Shown here: piece by piece, positions 18,257 to 56,890 of the stretch
How positions within the stretch are numbered: position 1 is the stretch's first letter
How the letters are laid out: every line of letters begins with the position of its first letter
Assembly: GCA_002842515.1 (NCBI GenBank)
Contig: PHDC01000001.1
Span: 2,108,001 to 2,172,000, forward strand
Reading direction: 5' to 3'
Source of the DNA: Bacteroidetes bacterium HGW-Bacteroidetes-5
GTDB taxonomy: Bacteria > Bacteroidota > Bacteroidia > Bacteroidales > UBA932
Length of the DNA: 64,000 nt
Notes under the pieces: model-generated
Database searches by the model: none
The model's input: the letters and a program-made list of their open reading frames with translations, nothing else
Told to the model about the DNA's origin: nothing
Program-made: the position numbers and the translations under genes

Positions 18257-18280
18257 GCACATAAATAATAGTTAATCTAA

Positions 18281-18315
18281 GAGGCTGTCTAATTTTAGAC
18301 AGCCTCTATTTTTAT
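18281..18315 (+). terminator. terminator hairpin after the OmpA-like gene
   Basis: GAGGCTGTCTAA, a short loop, TTAGACAGCCTC and a T run. The same GAGGCTG hairpin recurs at 33809 and, shortened, at 49479, each time directly before a copy of the dispersed hairpin element. Confidence 0.85.
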
Positions 18316-18362
18316 ATACTGTCGCCACTTATGCGTGGAATATAAACTTAGCGACAAATTTA
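18314..18362 (+). repeat. dispersed hairpin element, copy A (internal deletion derivative)
   Basis: Only the ends remain: left TGTCGCCACTTATGCGTGG (from 18320), as in the copies at 49.5 and 56.65 kb, and right TTAGCGACAAATT (about 18349-18360), as the right end of the 33.84-kb copy. About 170 bp of arm and core are missing. The two ends still pair through TGTCGC/GCGACA. Confidence 0.6.
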
Positions 18363-22243: not shown

Positions 22244-24313
22244 TTACAATGCGGAATCGACTAAAGTAGATTCAACTTGAGAAGGCGGAGCGGTTATTAC
22301 CGGCTCCGTCTCTTTTTTTGTGAATATCTCAAAGGCTGGTAAAACAGGAGTTTTCCCAAAAAGCTGATTTGTATAGAAGAAGCCGGGAAGTTCAAGGGTA
22401 GAGACATACTCTCTCGATGACGGAATGACTGACCTTGTTGTAACCTCAAAGCGACTGGCCGGTCTCTCGTTATACCTTAACCGAAAACCTTTTAGCCTCT
22501 TCTTTTCCGGTTCAACATCTATAATAGGATAGAGATCGCTCTGAACAGTTTCAAAGTATCTGACTCTTTGAACGCTCTTCTCTTTAATTATGGCGGTCAT
22601 AGTCTTACACTCCTTCTGATTCATAGTTGTGAGGATACTGTCCTCCGCGAAAAAGAAGATTACTGTTACCCCACCGTAAGCATCAAACCTGGTGAGGTCA
22701 CCCTCAGTAAAATGGGCAACAATATCTGTAGCTTTAATTTGATTGTAGTGCAGAGAGTCCTCTTTTGTAGCAACGAAAGCACCGGAGATAAGCTCTGTTT
22801 TGCTGAGCTGTTCATTAGAGGTAATAAGTTGTATACTGTCTGCGGTAAACTGATTGTTCTCATTCCAGAGCACAGGGTCTTTATATAGCCGGATAATTGA
22901 GTCTATAGAGTTGAACATTAAAGAGTCGCATCTGCCCTGAATATTGCTTCTGTAGAAACGGATGTTTTTATTTGCAGATATTACTCTTATTAAGGTTGTA
23001 TCTTTTGGAGTTAACAAAAGCGAGTCCTTGACCGGAATCTTGAGTGAATCTTTGAGATGATTTGAGAGTGAATCTTTGACCGGAATTCTGAGTGAATCTT
23101 TGAGATGATTTGAGAGTGAATCTTTGACCGAAATTTTGAGTGAATCCTTTGCGGTAATCTTTAGAAGGGAATCTACTGCGGCAGTTTTAAGCAAATCTGT
23201 AGCAGGGGGTTTAACAGCGACCACCGGTTTTTTTGCGGTTGAATCTTTGGGTAGCGGAGTAGGTCTGTTGTACATCTCTTTAATGGGGTCTTTCCGGCTA
23301 AGGGAGTACCTCTTTTGAGAGAGAGCAACTGTTGCGGAGTCCATCTCAAACTTAGGCAGCATTCGGTAGTGTATTGTATCAGCAGCAAAAAAGAGGGTAT
23401 CCGGAAGATCGTTCTCCACTGAGTAGTACGCAAGTGAAGGGTTTTTATAGAGTTCGGCAAAAACGGGATTCTCGCGGTATCTTACAAAATCCGAAAAGAG
23501 CAACATAGATTGTGCCGTATCCAGAATCTGAACATCATCGTAAAGCTCTGCTTTTGGCTCAGCTCTCTCGTAGTATATTCTTTTTGCCCAAAGTTCGTTT
23601 TGTCCGTTGAGCATATAGGCGTTGTCATCAAAATTGTATATCTCCTTCTCACGGTTGTACCAGCCACTGTTGGAGCTAAGAAAGCTGTTATTCTGCCACA
23701 CCTTTACAGAGCCAAGAAAATCTACACGCTTATCTTTACTCCAGTATGCGAGTGAATCACTCTTAAGGACAAGTGAGTCTGAGTTAAGTTCTACCCGTTC
23801 TATAAACTTAAACCGTTCAATTTTCGAGTGGTAGTACCCCCGTATGCTCTCTATAACCTTCCCCTTTTTATCCATCATACTTCCGCCGTTGAAGAAGTAT
23901 GCGATGCTATCTTTTGTATTATAGTCCAGATGTAATGTCCTGAGACGATTGCTATCCTTGTCTATAAGCTCAACCAGGTTACCTCTTACACGAGCAATAG
24001 AGCTGTCTGCAAGATAGTTAACTCTATCACCCGAAAGAATGGTGCGATCCTGAACTATCTTAACATTCCCGATAGCATCAACAATATTGTAGGTAAGATC
24101 CCATATTGCGGTATCACAAATTATTAATGTGTTGTTATGAAGAAATTGTGCAGGGCCTGTAACTTTTCTTATATTTCTGAATTCGTTTTGGTAAATCTCT
24201 GCTGTTTTGGCACTTAGCAGTCTAACAAGGCGATCTTCGCCCTGTGTCTGTTGTGCATTCGCAGAGATGGAAAAGAGTATAGTTAATATTAAAAATGACA
24301 GACTATGTCTCAT
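22244..24313 (-). CDS. OstA-like LPS transport/assembly family protein
   Basis: Exported 689-residue protein (signal peptide ending near SANAQ). Residues about 30-330 have repeated beta-strand units of the OstA/LptA fold (FLHNNTLIICDTAIWDLTYNIVDAIGNVKIVQDRTILSGDRVNYLADSSIARVRGNLVELID...). A low-complexity linker with KDSL repeats occupies residues about 385-435. A second OstA-like part (GRCDSLMFNSIDSIIRLYKDPVLWNENNQFTADSIQL) follows. Bacteroidetes carry such proteins beside SurA-like chaperones, as here: the stop of the SurA-like gene overlaps this start as ATGA. A role in moving lipopolysaccharide across the periplasm is inferred. Confidence 0.85.
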   Translation of the reverse strand: MRHSLSFLILTILFSISANAQQTQGEDRLVRLLSAKTAEIYQNEFRNIRKVTGPAQFLHNNTLIICDTAIWDLTYNIVDAIGNVKIVQDRTILSGDRVNYLADSSIARVRGNLVELIDKDSNRLRTLHLDYNTKDSIAYFFNGGSMMDKKGKVIESIRGYYHSKIERFKFIERVELNSDSLVLKSDSLAYWSKDKRVDFLGSVKVWQNNSFLSSNSGWYNREKEIYNFDDNAYMLNGQNELWAKRIYYERAEPKAELYDDVQILDTAQSMLLFSDFVRYRENPVFAELYKNPSLAYYSVENDLPDTLFFAADTIHYRMLPKFEMDSATVALSQKRYSLSRKDPIKEMYNRPTPLPKDSTAKKPVVAVKPPATDLLKTAAVDSLLKITAKDSLKISVKDSLSNHLKDSLRIPVKDSLSNHLKDSLKIPVKDSLLLTPKDTTLIRVISANKNIRFYRSNIQGRCDSLMFNSIDSIIRLYKDPVLWNENNQFTADSIQLITSNEQLSKTELISGAFVATKEDSLHYNQIKATDIVAHFTEGDLTRFDAYGGVTVIFFFAEDSILTTMNQKECKTMTAIIKEKSVQRVRYFETVQSDLYPIIDVEPEKKRLKGFRLRYNERPASRFEVTTRSVIPSSREYVSTLELPGFFYTNQLFGKTPVLPAFEIFTKKETEPVITAPPSQVESTLVDSAL
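23016..23155 (-). repeat. 24/48-bp in-frame tandem repeat in the OstA-like gene
   Basis: Six 8-residue units beginning KDSL: KISV, SNHL, RIPV, SNHL, KIPV, LLTP. Units alternate, so the larger period is 16 residues (48 bp) and DNA identity between the two SNHL pairs is very high. It encodes a flexible linker between the two OstA-like parts and is a likely spot for copy-number change. Confidence 0.8.
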
Positions 24314-33777: not shown

Positions 33778-33808
33778 GCGTTATATAAGAGAGCATTTGC
33801 TCAAAATA

Positions 33809-33842
33809 GAGGCTGTCTAAATGTAGGCAGCCTCTGTTTTTA
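33809..33842 (+). terminator. terminator hairpin before element copy B
   Basis: GAGGCTGTCTA, short loop, TAGGCAGCCTC and a T run. The stem is nearly the same as at 18281, although the upstream genes are unrelated. Confidence 0.85.
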
Positions 33843-34058
33843 TATATAGTCGCCAGTTCTGCTATAGAAAGCTCAACAATCGCAACGCAGTTTTTCTTAA
33901 CGCTTTTTTCTTTGTGTTTTTCGGGGCTTCCGGAACGCCTCCCTTCGGTCGTTGAACGGTCCTCAGCCTAATCCGAAAAACCCTACAGAAAATAAGCTAA
34001 AAAACAGATGTTGCTTATAGTTGAGCTTTCCAAAGCATAGAACTATAGCGACATATTC
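33843..34058 (+). repeat. dispersed hairpin element, copy B (full length)
   Basis: About 215 bp. The left end AGTCGCC and right end TAGCGACA are inverted. Inside them AGAAAGCTCAAC (33866-33877) pairs with GTTGAGCTTTCC (34020-34031), and GCAAC pairs with GTTGC. The core from 33892 (AACGCAGTTTTT) to 34012 (CAGATGTTGC) is almost the same as in copies C and D, including TTCGGGGCTTCCGGAACGCC and GTCGTTGAACGGTCCTCAGC. The whole folds as one long hairpin. No ORF. Confidence 0.85.
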
Positions 34059-39944: not shown

Positions 39945-42900
39945 ATGGCTAAACGAACTTGTTTACTCTTGTGCACTATCTTGCTTTCTTTAAGCGCAGC
40001 ATTTGCACAAACCAGAGTTACCGGCGTGGTAACCGATCTCTCTGATGGCTCTCCAATTCCGTATGCAAATGTTATGATTAAAGGCACAACTACCGGTGTG
40101 GCTGCCAACGCCAATGGTGTTTATGTTTTTGTTAATGTGCCGGCAAATGCTACACTTATCTTCTCCTCAATCGGGTATCAGACTATGGAGATTCCGGTTG
40201 ACTCAAGAACAGTAATAAATGCCTCTTTATCTACCGTTGCTGTAGGTCTGGAAGAGATTATGGTTGTTGCCTACGGATCTGTAAAAAAAGGATCATACTC
40301 CGGCTCTGCAACACAAATCAACCAACAGAGTTTTAAAGATGTTCCTGTTGTTACTTTTGAACAGGCAATAGTTGGGGCGGTACCCGGAGTCCAGATTTCT
40401 CAAAAATCGGGTCAGCCGGGATCTTTGCCCGAAATTCGGATTCGAGGTTTTGGCTCATTCAATGCCGGAAACGAGCCTTTGTATGTTATCGATGGTGTTC
40501 CTGCCACCAGCGGGGACTATGGTTCTCAAAACATCTACACCAGCTCTATGAACTATCTGAACCCCGGAGATATTCAGTCAATAACAATATTAAAAGATGC
40601 TGCTGCATCTTCGCTTTACGGCTCCAGAGCCTCTAATGGTGTAATTCTAATAACCACAAAGAAAGGAAGTGCAGGTAAAGCAATCTCTACATTCAAAGCT
40701 AATGTTGGGGTCTCTTACTTCGCCTTCAATAACTATCCTATGGTTTCAGAAGAGGAGAAAGAGATTCTTACAAGAGAGGCTTGGAGAAATTATGGTTCAG
40801 ACAATCCTTCTCAGTGGCAAAGTTACGGGTCGCTTGATAGCTATGTAAATTTTATGGCAGAGAAGTACTTTCCTTCAAGAAAAACAGATCTTATCTATAA
40901 AGATTGGGAGAGCGCACTCTTCCGTACAGGGGTTTCTCAAAACTATGAGTATAGCATCTCAGGAGGTACAGATAAATCCAAGGTCTTTGCATCTGTTGCA
41001 TATACCGATGAAAATGGTGTTAACCGAATTCAGTACTTAAACAGATTAACAGCAAGTGTAAATGCAGAGAGCAAAGTCTCGAACAGAATAACAATAGGTG
41101 GCTCTTTTCAGTTCTCAAATCAGAAGCAGAGCGGACACCAAGACGGACAGGCCAAAGACAACCTCTTCTACCTGTGGAAAGTTCACCTTACAGAACGCTG
41201 GCCTTTTCAATATGCATCAGACGGATCCTACTGGATGAAGTACTATGACGGAGGGACGCGCGTAAACCCTGTTCCTCAGTGGCACCTTCAGCTAAATGAC
41301 GCCACCCAGCAGAGAATATTGCTAAAGGGTTGGATAGAAGCAAGATTAACAGACGACATTAAAATTAAAAGTGTTGTTGGAGGAGACTATTTAAAAAGTC
41401 ACGACCGGTTCGGATGGCTATATGGGCATATTAACTTTACAGCCTATGGGAACGGATATGCATCTGACAGGTTCCGCAATGTGGACAGGATTGTAAGTTC
41501 AACTACCGCCAACTTCACAAAATCCTTCGGCAAACACAATGTTTCTGCTTTAGTAGGGTGGGAAGCCGAAAAAGAGGACTTCCTCTATTCAAGGCTGGAA
41601 AAAATTGATTTTGCAAACTTTGGAGCAACAGAGTCTGCTCTTGCAAATACATTCAGATCTGGGTTTACTTACAGGAGTAACTCAAACCTATTATCTGCGC
41701 TAAGTAACATTAGTTATGACTACGACAATAAATATTATCTCTCTGGATCATATCGTCTGGATGGCTCCTCAAGGCTTGGTCCGGACAGCAGATGGGGTAA
41801 CTTCTGGTCTGTTGCAGGTTCGTGGAGGCTTAGCAAAGAGATGTTTTTAAGAGATGTAAGCTGGCTGGATGAACTTAAAATAAGAGGTTCATACGGAACT
41901 AGTGGAACACTTCCTTCTAACTACTACGGTTATATGGCTGTTTTCAGTTATGGGGTATATGGTACAGAAGGTGCAGGGTATCCATCCAATCTTGCTAATG
42001 CAGACCTTACCTGGGAGAAAAACAAAAACTGGAACGTTGCTTTAGATGCAAGAATATTTGACAGGGTGGACATTGTAGCCGAATTCTACAATAAAACCAC
42101 AGAAGATCTTTTGCTAAATGCATCAGTACCCTCAACAACAGGATTCTCGTCTGCACTATCAAATATCGGCTCTATGCTTAACAGAGGTCTTGAACTCTCA
42201 GTGAGTGCAGATATAATAAAGAAAAAGGATATGACCCTTACGGTTGGTCTTAACTGGGCAAATCTATATAATGAGATTATCTCACTTGCCAATGAAGGTG
42301 AGCAAATTGTTACAAGACCTCATATATGGAAAGCGGGCTATTCGTATGTGCAATATTATACCAGAGAGTATTATGGTGCAGACCCCCAGACGGGAGCAGC
42401 AATGTACTACTCTAATGCTACACTGCCCGATGGTTCAAAAGACAGGTCTTTAGTAAGCAGAGCTCAGGCTTCATCTGTAATTCTTGATGGGATGACTGCA
42501 ATTCCAAAAGGATTTGGAGGGTTCAACTCTACCTTTACCTGGAAATCCCTTACAGCATCTATGGCTTGGTCATATAAATATGGGCACTATGTGTTTGATA
42601 ATGCGGTAGATGATATTGAGGATGATGGTTACAACTCCTATAAAAACAGTGCACAATCTCAGAATGACCGATGGCAGAAACCAGGTGATGTTACTCAGGT
42701 TCCGCGTCGTGTTGCCGGGAATACAGGAGGTGGTTATTACGATTCAAGTCGTGCCCTTAAAGAGGGAGATTATTTAAGGTTGAAAAATATGACAATCTCC
42801 TATACGATTCCGGACAATATTAAGAATTATCTTAGATTGTCAAATGCAAGGGTTTATGTTTCAGGAACCAATCTCTTGACATTTACCGGTTTAAATTTCG

Positions 42901-44819: not shown

Positions 44820-47800
44820 ATGAAGAAATCAATCTTGATTGTCTTAGCCCTCTTGCTTGTCAATATGGCTATGGCACAGATGAAGGTTACGGGTACGGTG
44901 ACCTCCTCCGAGGACGGCTCACCAATTCCTTTTGCAACCGTCTTGGTTCAGGGCGCAAGAAACGTAGGAGCATCAACAGACCTGGATGGTAAGTACTCTT
45001 TTGACAATGTCTCAAAAGATGCAGTACTTATCTTCTCCTACATCGGATTTACTACGCAACAGGTACCTATCAACGGCAGATCGGTAATTAATGTTGTCCT
45101 TGTACCGGATGCAACCCGTCTGGATGAGGTAATGGTGGTTGCATATGGAACCGCCACAAAAGGGACCTTTACCGGAGCAGCCAGTGTCGTTAAAAATGAC
45201 GCTATCAAAGATGTACCCAGCATCACTTTTGAAAATGCTCTAAACGGAAAGGTAGCCGGGTTGCAAATCACCACACTCTCCGGCCAGGCAGGCTCTACCT
45301 CTGCTATCAGGGTGCGTGGTATTGGTTCTATGAATGCATCAAATGAGCCTCTTTATGTTATAGACGGAGTTCCAGTGGTATCCGGCAATGCAGGCCAGAT
45401 GAGTGGTTACATCTACTCAACAAGTAATGTAATGAGTTCACTTAACACTGCAGATATCGAGTCTATTACAGTATTGAAAGATGCTGCTGCTTCTTCACTT
45501 TACGGCTCTCGTGCAGCAAACGGTGTAATTCTCATTACAACAAAAAGGGGAAAACAGGGAAGGACAATTGTTAATTTCAAAGCATCGGTAGGTATTACCC
45601 CATCTTGGGCTACAGATAACTACGAAGTTGCAACAACCGAGCAACAGGTTGAGATGTACTATGAGAACTTTTGGAATGCAGGCGTTTACTATCAAAACAG
45701 AACTCAGCAGGATGCAAGTGTGAGAGCACTACAACAGCTTAATAACCGTTTTGCCAAACACGGCTATACATTTACAGCACCTGACCACACTGTAAAAACT
45801 CTTACAATTGGAGGTGACAGGGCTGGACAATATTTTGACTGGGAGGATGTGCTTTTCAGAACATCTGTATATCAGACATATGATCTATCTGTTAGCGGTG
45901 CAACAGAGAGTTCAAACTACTACACATCACTTTCATACACAAAAGAGCAGGGACGAATTCCTGTTAACAGTTTTGACAGGATTACAGGACGGGTTAATTT
46001 AACTCAAAAGGTTGGGAAAAGTGTTGAGTTCAATACCAATATTAATATAGCCAGAAGCGGTAAAGTGGGCTTTAACGATACCCGTGCTTTAGGAAACAAC
46101 TATTTCCTTCAGAGCCGTAACCTAATGTGGGGTCTTTACTGGCCAACAGATTATATTACCGGAGCTCCTTGGACACTTAGATACGGAAGTTATGCATATA
46201 ATCCGCTATTCTATAATAATGAGTGGGACAATAACTCAAGCACACTAAGGATATCTGCAAACGAAACAGTGACGGTAAAAATTCTACCGGAACTTACATT
46301 AAAGACAATCTTCTCATATGACAATGCAGGTACACTAGACCATCTTTATTACAGTCCGGTTCACTTCCTGGGATCTGCTTCAAAGGGTTCGGTGAGAGAG
46401 ATGAGCACAAATGTAAATAAGCTGGTATCATCTACCACTCTTAACTATAACAAGACATTTGCACAGAAACACACAATTGGTCTGCTAGTTGGTTGGGAAG
46501 CAGAGGAGAACAAAACAGAGTTTATCAGAGCAGAGGGTTCAGACCTGCCAACGGGAGCACTTCAAACAGTTGCAACTGCAGGGGTTTTAACATCTAATGC
46601 ATACTACTGGGGAAACACTATGCTCTCTATGCTCTCACGCGCAGAGTATAACTACGATAACAGATACTACTTCTCAGGCTCATTCCGTCGTGACGGATCT
46701 TCAAGATTGGGCCCTGATGCCCGCTGGGGTAACTTCTGGTCATTAGCCGGTTCGTGGAGAATAGACAAGGAGGAGTTTATGAAAAATGTAGATGTCATAA
46801 GCAGTTTGAGATTAAGAGGCTCATACGGGGTAAACGGAACACTTCCTTCGGCTAACTACGGATGGCGCTCACTTGCTACATATGGAAATAAATATATGGA
46901 GCAATCCGGTGGCGGAGTAAGTACAATTGCAGATGCTAGCCTATCCTGGGAGACAAGTTACACCTCTAATATAGCTTTGGAGTTTGGGTTACTTGACCAA
47001 AGAATCAGCGGAACAGTAGAGTTCTTTAACAGAGATTCAAAAGACCTGCTGCAAGATGTTCCAACTTCCCGTGTTACAGGTTTTGGGTCCACACTCAAGA
47101 ATATCGGAGAGATTAATAATAAAGGGATTGAGATTGAGCTAAGCGGAGATATCATTAAGAATGAGACTATCACATGGAGTGCAGGAATAACAGCATCAAG
47201 TGTAAAATCTACTGTTACAAAACTGTATGGTGGTCAGAACATAATTTGGAATGAACCTACAGGTGGTGACGCCAGAACTAAGTTTATCTACCAGGAGGGA
47301 CAATCTACTCTTGCTATTTATGGTCGTGAGTGGGCAGGTGTAGATAGAGAGACAGGTAAAAATGTTTGGTATATGAATAATGAAAACACAACCACACAAC
47401 CTACCACAGTTAACGGACGCCCGGCTACATTCAGATATCAGGATGCAAGCGAGAAGATTATTGGAAATGTCCATCCTAAGCTATTTGGAGGTTTCAATAC
47501 AGATGTTAAATGGAAAGGGTTCTCTCTTGCTCTTAACTTTACCTATAAACTTGGAGGATATACTTATGACGCTGCCGGTCGTGATGTAACCGATGACGGT
47601 TACTACTGGGAGAGGATTATGTCTAAAGATCAGTATGACAACAGATGGACTCCTGAGAACAAGGATGCCAAATATCCGCAACGCGTCGCTGTTGACTTTG
47701 AAGATGTAAACCAAAAGAGTAGCAGGCATATGCACGATGCAGACTATTTAAGATTAAAGAGTTTAACTTTATCCTATAACCTGCCAAAGAGTATTCTTAA

Positions 47801-49478: not shown

Positions 49479-49507
49479 AGGCTGCCATTTTTGGTAGCCT
49501 TTTTTTA
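49479..49507 (+). terminator. terminator hairpin before element copy C
   Basis: AGGCTGCCA, loop, TGGTAGCCT and seven T. Shortened relative of the GAGGCTG hairpins at 18281 and 33809. Confidence 0.8.
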
Positions 49508-49632
49508 TATTAAGTCGCCACATATGCGTGGAAAGCTCACCGGCAGCAACGCAGTTTTTTCAAACGCTTTTTTCTTTGAGTTTTTCGGGGCTTCCGGAAC
49601 GCCTCCCTACGGTCGTTGAACGGTCCTCAGCT
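49508..49632 (+). repeat. dispersed hairpin element, copy C (right arm missing)
   Basis: Left end AAGTCGCCACATATGCGTGG, left arm GAAAGCTCACCGGCAGCAAC (49531-49550) and the conserved core through GTCGTTGAACGGTCCTCAGC (49612-49631) are present. After that the match to copies B and D stops, and the flavodoxin gene's stop codon follows 16 bp on. The right arm has been deleted or replaced. Confidence 0.8.
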
Positions 49633-56649: not shown

Positions 56650-56855
56650 CTTTTATATACTGTCGCTACTTATGCAGTGGGAAGCTCACCGGCAGCAACG
56701 CAGTTTTTTCAAACGCTTTTTTCTTTGTGTTTTTCGGGGCTTCCGGAATGCCTCCCTACGGTCGTTGAACGGTCCTCAGCCTTTTTCCGAAAAACCCTTC
56801 AGAAAACAAGCTAAAAAACAGATGTTGCTGCCGGTGAGTTTTCTCCACTGCATAA
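56650..56855 (+). repeat. dispersed hairpin element, copy D (full core, shortened right end)
   Basis: Outer arms TTATGCAGTGG (56670-56680) and CCACTGCATAA (56845-56855) are perfect inverses. Inner arms GCTCACCGGCAGCAAC (56684-56699) and GTTGCTGCCGGTGAG (56824-56838) also pair. The core matches copies B and C. The far right TAGCGACA end of copy B is missing. Several short open frames here are not coding. Confidence 0.85.
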
Positions 56856-56890
56856 AAAAAGAGGATGACCAAAAAGTCATCCTCTTTTTT
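56853..56890. terminator. bidirectional terminator between the hut operon and nifJ
   Basis: An A run, AGAGGATGAC, loop CAAAAA, GTCATCCTCT and a T run: a perfect 10-bp stem readable as a terminator on both strands. The nifJ stop is 16 bp away on the minus strand. Confidence 0.9.

Follow-up and report, generated by a model that had tools for sequence, protein, structure and literature searches.

A dispersed hairpin repeat of Bacteroidales with a conserved head and variable arms, a candidate mobile DNA element

Introduction

It is an open question by what route non-autonomous palindromic repeats come into being and how their two arms stay complementary. The locus at 56650-56855 of the window (the whole stretch of 64,000 nucleotides analysed here) poses it in concrete form, since it holds one copy of a repeat, named H1 here, whose arms pair with each other and differ between copies. 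A preliminary description of this DNA had left three options for the repeat, namely a structured RNA, a palindromic mobile element and a single-strand recombination substrate. The question is therefore what keeps the arms paired, and what kind of element H1 is.

Results

Copies in the window and in its genome

Three related copies had been described at the outset, at 33843-34058, 49508-49632 and 56650-56855. All three lie at these places and were recovered independently by repeat finding as family D1, while a second family, D5, which is the right part of the repeat, comprises copies B and D only. The features of the window are as follows.

56650..56855, plus strand: H1 copy D, core complete; a relative has a longer outer right end at this locus (L012)
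56693..56832, plus strand: covariance-model match of copy D, 158.5 bits (G000:C1:2164693-2164832)
56685..56699, plus strand: left arm of copy D, CTCACCGGCAGCAAC, named in the preliminary description and read from the sequence
56824..56838, plus strand: right arm of copy D, GTTGCTGCCGGTGAG, named and read likewise
56745..56777, minus strand: conserved H1 head of copy D; the family's heads mostly read GA, 2-bp stem, 3-nt loop, 2-bp stem, GA on this strand
33843..34058, plus strand: H1 copy B, complete, with arms different from those of D (model match 33880-34018)
49508..49632, plus strand: H1 copy C, left arm and head only, the right half lost
18318..18356, plus strand: coreless form of the H1 outer ends; a locus with the same flanks in a relative (L013) holds an element
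33808..33835, plus strand: terminator-like hairpin of the AGGCTGYC type, directly left of copy B
18280-18307 and 49479-49500: hairpins similar to this AGGCTGYC terminator-like one
56858..56887, found on both strands: terminator-like hairpin directly right of copy D

In the window's own genome (G000; 2.8 Mb, 5 contigs), blastn returned 11 rows, which correspond to seven H1 copies, three self-complementary matches and one remnant, the coreless form at 18318-18356. Elsewhere in this genome (L286, G000:C1:1734595-1735395, minus strand), the short perfect palindrome ATACTGTCGCCAC-TTATGC-GTGGCGACAGTAT consists of the outer ends of own-genome elements without any core. A further repeat, starting AACCTTGCCAAGC, lies near two H1 copies (L002 and L007), and in L002 it is found on both sides in inverted orientation.

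Folding and covariation

Copy D folded as RNA reaches -84.4 kcal/mol, against a mean of -48.5 for shuffled sequences (z -8.1; 0 of 200 shuffles as good). Its minus strand folded as DNA gives a z of -9.5, and the fold of copy B a z of -6.2. The paired arms originally ascribed to all three copies are present in D and B; in copy C the right half is gone, and the arms cannot pair.

Covariation was assessed on the structure used for model R1, which has 140 positions and 37 pairs and was built from 44 selected copies. Given that the RNAalifold consensus on the sequence-only alignment of these copies (A1) contains no more than 16 pairs, of which 9 are changed on both sides, the model structure was set from single-sequence folds. 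On the sequence-only alignment of the 44 copies, 21 of the 37 pairs are changed on both sides (shuffles: mean 13.1, 0 of 500 as high; slid controls: 3-14), 120 cells are changed on both sides (shuffles: mean 33.7; slid controls: 10-54), and the covariation score is 0.231 (shuffles: 0.110; partners slid: 0.032-0.072), where the shuffles ignore relatedness and both kinds of control allow for kinship incompletely. Thus, the compensating change first noticed between two copies is real and holds in this larger set. It is partly, however, a matter of whole arm pairs that differ around similar cores, and not of point-by-point replacement.

The two small palindromes noted at the tip are present as well, but covariation favours another head, made of helix 64-67/81-84 and a mini-hairpin, 72-73/78-79. 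Three of its pairs covary among the 44 copies: 64-84 (A-T in 31, G-C in 9, other in 4), 72-79 (C-G in 38, G-C in 5, A-T in 1) and 73-78 (C-G in 41, and T-A, T-G and other in 1 each). Pair 67-81 is broken in 14 of the 44. In all, 16 cells of the head are changed on both sides, compared with 3.5 in shuffles, while two alternative foldings of the same stretch show no such cell in the 44 copies. Unpaired positions of H1 are conserved between species with different arms.

Of 54 distinct H1 heads, 38 show on the minus strand a mini-hairpin with a 2-bp stem and a 3-nt loop, set between two GA dinucleotides, and 16 do not; the loop is GNA in 27 of the 38. The motif occurs 0 times on the other strand and in 131 of 10800 shuffled H1 heads. 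The apex is thus built like the DNA mini-hairpins of the d(GCGNAGC) type, in which GNA loops lie next to sheared G·A pairs and which are known for their stability and for recognition by proteins. In DNA, a GNA mini-hairpin that adjoins G·A pairs is very stable.

Probable exchange of whole arms

H1 arms are long, inverted and different between lineages. They were compared within one genome, G010, which we take to be Bacteroidales bacterium CF and which is a single contig titled complete genome. The comparison covered 17 of its 18 matches (L330 was left out); three were dropped for weak pairing, and the arms of the remaining 14 of 17 are paired at p<0.01. In 24 of the 91 pairs of copies there is no significant arm similarity on either side (p>0.05), with cores 75-92% identical. 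At least three arm sets are mutually unrelated, namely those of L069, of L019 and of the large family of L091 and L071. Given that L069 and L091 carry unrelated arms around cores up to 90% identical, block exchange is indicated, and gradual compensation is hard to reconcile with these copies. We read this as a sign that the pairing of H1 is probably kept both by covariation and by the exchange of whole arms. These figures supersede an earlier arm-comparison score (126 of 666 pairs), whose background of 0.49 left related and unrelated arms inseparable.

Distribution

A search of the genome and its relatives with the covariance model, the check proposed in the preliminary description, confirmed H1 as a dispersed repeat. 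Apart from the seven own-genome copies, it showed the repeat throughout the genus, where R1 has 148 matches in 19 of 25 genomes, at 1 to 20 per positive genome; these counts may be low because at most 130 candidates per genome were scored. All 12 genus genomes with completeness of 90% or more and contamination of 5% or less are positive. With copy D as blastn query, 18 of 99 genomes matched, the own genome included; all 18 belong to the own genus (25 genomes), and 0 of the 74 genomes of other genera matched. Near relatives hold H1 copies at the same loci as the own genome, and hence no recent jump is seen. A conserved single-copy gene was considered and rejected: the five genomes with one match hold H1 at four different places, only G011 and G013 sharing one.

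Beyond the genus, a 32-base head pattern was found in 83 stretches of a genome contig collection. Among the 80 matches listed of these 83, 71 come from records named Bacteroidales, Bacteroidetes, Bacteroidia or Rikenellaceae, 7 from five Candidatus Gastranaerophilales genomes, 1 from a TM6 genome and 1 from an Eubacteriales bin; the last is probably misplaced, its sample series (C8) being also that of a Bacteroidales carrier. Bacteroidales bacterium CF (CP006772) is among the carriers. The Gastranaerophilales copies have the same head within different, AT-rich arms. R1, run on these loci with L187 left out, matched four of them over the whole model (41-49 bits) and gave three head-only matches in two loci (41 bits). 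Among 292 sampled genomes of the same phylum, the head pattern matched the centre genome, G099, alone, and the distribution of the head is therefore patchy. The TM6 copy has a Bacteroidales-like form (111 bits) and lies about 200 bases from a contig end, so that an assembly error is possible there.

A viral or plasmid origin was also rejected, the head having 0 exact matches in IMG/VR and a stretch of 146 bases no blastn match in phages or plasmids.

Two of the Gastranaerophilales loci (L170:1030-1200 and L190:300-1200) contain similar arms with other heads, for example GA, GCTGAC, TTT, GTCAGC, GA in L170; in L190 the hairpins form a tandem array.

Placement among genes and terminators

Placement was examined for 116 distinct copies, with ORFs called mechanically. 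None of the 116 lies inside an ORF over 200 aa. Among the 80 that could be classified (36 were unclassifiable), 40 lie in convergent, 35 in tandem and 5 in divergent gaps; the background, which consists of 50-900-base gaps in retrieved loci 6 kb or longer and draws in part on the same loci, comprises 39 convergent, 113 tandem and 51 divergent. In tandem gaps, 14 copies have the orientation of their neighbours and 21 the opposite one. H1 thus sits between genes, mostly at gene ends, without fixed orientation to its neighbours.

Several copies are found beside, directly after or between terminator-like hairpins. The own genome has 17 hairpins of the AGGCTGYC type, 5 of which stand directly before an element or the remnant. 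Given that 12 of the 17 have no full element (at least 3 of these 12 are followed by left-end remnants), the terminator was rejected as a part of the H1 unit; it probably belongs to the host.

H1 forms clusters in one orientation in G010 and G006, an arrangement that brought integron attC sites to mind as a possible parallel; such sites are marked by R boxes at the hairpin base, an IntI integrase and gene cassettes. In L071 and L091 (G010) and L094 (G006), copies in the same orientation alternate with genes that we take to be toxin-antitoxin- and defence-like; to judge by sequence, the presumed look-alikes are an AbiE-like pair, a HipBA-like pair, an acetyltransferase-type pair, a type I restriction subunit and Cas9. 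Over the whole of G010, 15 H1 matches are on the plus and 3 on the minus strand, and comparison of the noisy GC-skew halves gave no clear switch that would have supported a replication-strand bias. L091:4040-4809 and G006:C134:9889-12433 have flanks of 97 and 98% identity and differ in gene content between the repeats, G010 having about 770 bp with an H1 copy and G006 about 2.5 kb with a 796-aa ORF.

Signatures of DNA and of RNA

Base pairs were counted after left arms had been aligned to the complement of right arms with no wobble credit, for 55 of 68 representatives (the 13 with an arm score under 20 were dropped). The 55 copies give 3823 Watson-Crick pairs, 110 G·U, 116 A·C and 598 other mismatches (G·U versus A·C, p 0.74). 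As a strand-specific RNA should have far more G·U than A·C, this favours DNA. Alignment A1 has 53 G·U and 33 A·C, with 28 of the 53 coming from three columns. A control of 24 distinct tRNAs shows 43 G·U and 0 A·C, and is biased since ARAGORN selects paired stems.

A match to Rfam or to a known IS end had been named at the outset as a possible refutation. No family of Rfam 15 reaches its gathering score on H1, the only match in the window being a tRNA. At E up to 1, a search of seven loci yielded only a chance-level match to mir-627 (25 bits, cut-off 86), located over the right edge of copy D and the terminator beside it. No match of H1 to a known IS end was found.

Hairpins nested in hairpins

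A second hairpin family, H2, has a head pattern of its own, with 21 matches in G010, 12 in G006 and 0 in the other 23 genomes of the genus, the window's included; these 21 and 12 matches are H2 tips without H1. H1 and H2 are otherwise different, but the same apical GA-flanked mini-hairpin is present in 9 of 15 distinct H2 heads and absent from 6.

Ten of the 116 H1 copies, all in G010 or G006, are flanked by both halves of the H2 head and thus lie within an H2 tip. The halves stand at near-constant distances, 77-78 nt to the left and 81-91 nt to the right, and the left junction falls at the CTTAA that H1 keeps in an unpaired stretch. In all, 28 H1 copies have any H2-like match; 18 of these matches are fuzzy and on one side only, many of them probably due to chance. 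Conversely, among 23 distinct H2 copies with enough flank, H1 arms are found on both sides in 9, on the left only in 5, on the right only in 3 and on neither side in 6. At 1200 random places the two H1 arm motifs never occur together; 155 places have just the left one, which is lax, and 4 just the right one. One locus, L325, reads H2>H1>H2 (fold z -5.1). As G010 is a single contig titled complete, the nesting is not only an artefact of drafts; as G010 and G006 share several nested loci, independent nesting events are fewer than copies.

G014 and G001 each have one locus at which H1 copies, two and three respectively, alternate with REPIN-like units. An exact-motif search for H1 arms with a non-H1 head gave 0 in the locus set preceding the H2-in-H1 loci. 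The coreless forms (18318-18356 and L286) no more than hint that the window's own copies lie nested within an outer hairpin, and deletion could equally have produced them.

Discussion

What kind of element is H1?

We lean, with somewhat better than even confidence, towards H1 being a non-coding mobile DNA of the fold-back kind, which acts as a DNA hairpin and inserts at hairpin tips. The best reading of its way of life is MITE/REPIN-like, H1 being moved in trans or by repair template switching. A palindromic repeat would be extruded as a hairpin or cruciform and its tip opened; a copy of another hairpin would then be joined or copied into the opened tip, giving nested palindromes. Through such an insertion at a hairpin tip, the core would get new arms that are already complementary. 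The apical module (GA, 2-bp stem, 3-nt loop, 2-bp stem, GA) may be the single-stranded DNA target of the enzyme, for which the candidates are a Y1/HUH (RAYT-type) transposase acting in trans or SbcCD-type hairpin-opening repair with template switching. H1 would decay through deletions that take one half or the centre. Among the options first offered, a palindromic, mobile-like DNA element is thus best supported, and the single-strand recombination substrate fits as a mode of action, although no enzyme was found for it.

A narrower form of the RAYT proposal would make H1 a REPIN variant that a resident Y1 (HUH) transposase mobilises in trans, as may hold for the inverted doublets beside RAYT genes of this genus. 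Y1_Tnp matches are present in 22 of the 25 genus genomes, and 22 of the 47 Y1 loci examined are flanked on either side by an inverted repeat, which in a few cases is terminator-like. Furthermore, the arm of a RAYT doublet in G010, GTGGCACTGATTTTTCTAA, resembles the H1 arm end GACACTGATTTTTCTTAA of the same genome, and the alternation of H1 with REPIN-like units in G001 and G014 points the same way. However, among 50 Y1 matches a single one has an H1 match within about 1 kb, and there H1 stands on one side only. H1 is also carried by genomes free of Y1 matches, namely G005 and G020, which are incomplete, and all five Gastranaerophilales carriers, whose genomes may be incomplete; the TM6 genome has two partial matches. 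We therefore consider this variant rather unlikely. That H1 is instead a structured non-coding RNA or 3'-UTR element, with its RNA fold under selection, would agree with the covariation, the conserved unpaired positions, the closeness to gene 3' ends and the G·U surplus of A1. Against it stand the lack of a G·U excess over whole arms and of a fixed orientation in tandem gaps, the several copies beyond terminator-like hairpins, the unrelated arms on similar cores and the Rfam result, and we disfavour this option as improbable. A shade more improbable still is a passive palindrome, a dispersed repeat that lacks both a mover and a selected head and owes its form to replication slippage and quasi-palindrome correction alone. 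The lost halves and centres and the symmetric mismatches, which fit correction, are what it would produce, but it does not account for unpaired positions conserved between species with different arms, for the head in other phyla or for nested units at near-constant positions. By these comparisons, the mobile DNA hairpin remains our preferred reading.

A retron ncRNA was rejected: RVT_1 occurs in 7 of the 25 genus genomes and in none of G000, G010 and G006.

Comparison with known systems

REPs, BIMEs and REPINs with their RAYT (TnpA-REP) transposases, and the terminal inverted repeats beside RAYT genes (TIRtrons), are described as palindromic, intergenic, mostly downstream of genes, and arranged in dimers and clusters (PMC3733652, PMC6006769). 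H1 resembles them in all of these respects. It differs in being a hairpin of 140 to about 330 nt with a conserved head, in flanking no RAYT gene and in having some Y1-free carriers. REP and REPIN hairpins are short and carry GTAG or CGTC as a tag at the foot. The H1 core consensus of 44 copies has no GTAG tag, and CGTC/CGTT only inside the head; GTAG is found near the outer right end in some own-clade copies and was not seen in the arms of other species. Bacterial MITEs (ERIC, YPAL, NEMIS, Nezha) are non-coding units of 70-300 bp with inverted repeats, often beside genes (PMC3733652). H1 is alike in being non-coding, with inverted repeats and often gene-adjacent; it differs in that no target-site duplication or transposase match was seen, in arms that differ as blocks and in the nesting of hairpin in hairpin. 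In the loci read by eye, neither a target-site duplication nor an autonomous partner was seen. Mitochondria have mobile hairpins too, among them the double-hairpin elements of Allomyces. Yeast GC42 and the sponge RHE are short and mobile with a constrained fold, and the yeast units merge and shuffle (PMC4478555, PMC2800124). Their stems are conserved and their loops vary, whereas in H1, which resides in a bacterial chromosome, the head is conserved and the stems vary.

No description of an H1 element was found among the titles and abstract beginnings listed in searches of an open-access library. H1 is most likely new as a family, with hairpin-in-hairpin nesting as an unusual trait. We advance more tentatively, as a possibility on the doubtful side, that it represents a hitherto undescribed kind of mobile DNA, in which hairpins enter the tips of other hairpins, are directed there by an apical module that they have in common on single strands, and reach different phyla while encoding no transposase themselves. 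Unrelated arm pairs and tip-in-tip nesting, both readable in a complete genome, would offer a concrete route to complementary arms by insertion at hairpin tips. Likewise, the one-strand apical module of two otherwise different families would provide a DNA target with which to seek the enzyme.

Further observations

Near genes for Y1, RAYT-like transposases (L120-L129 and L222-L258), many of the flanking repeats are doublets of 100-150 nt with family-specific arms, and several of these doublets contain CCCCAGGGG or CCTCAGAGG. In the window itself, neighbouring large ORFs at 40548-41929 and 45432-46861 have three stretches in common, at 71-76% identity, and a 24-base tandem repeat lies at 23019-23162 within a reverse-strand ORF.
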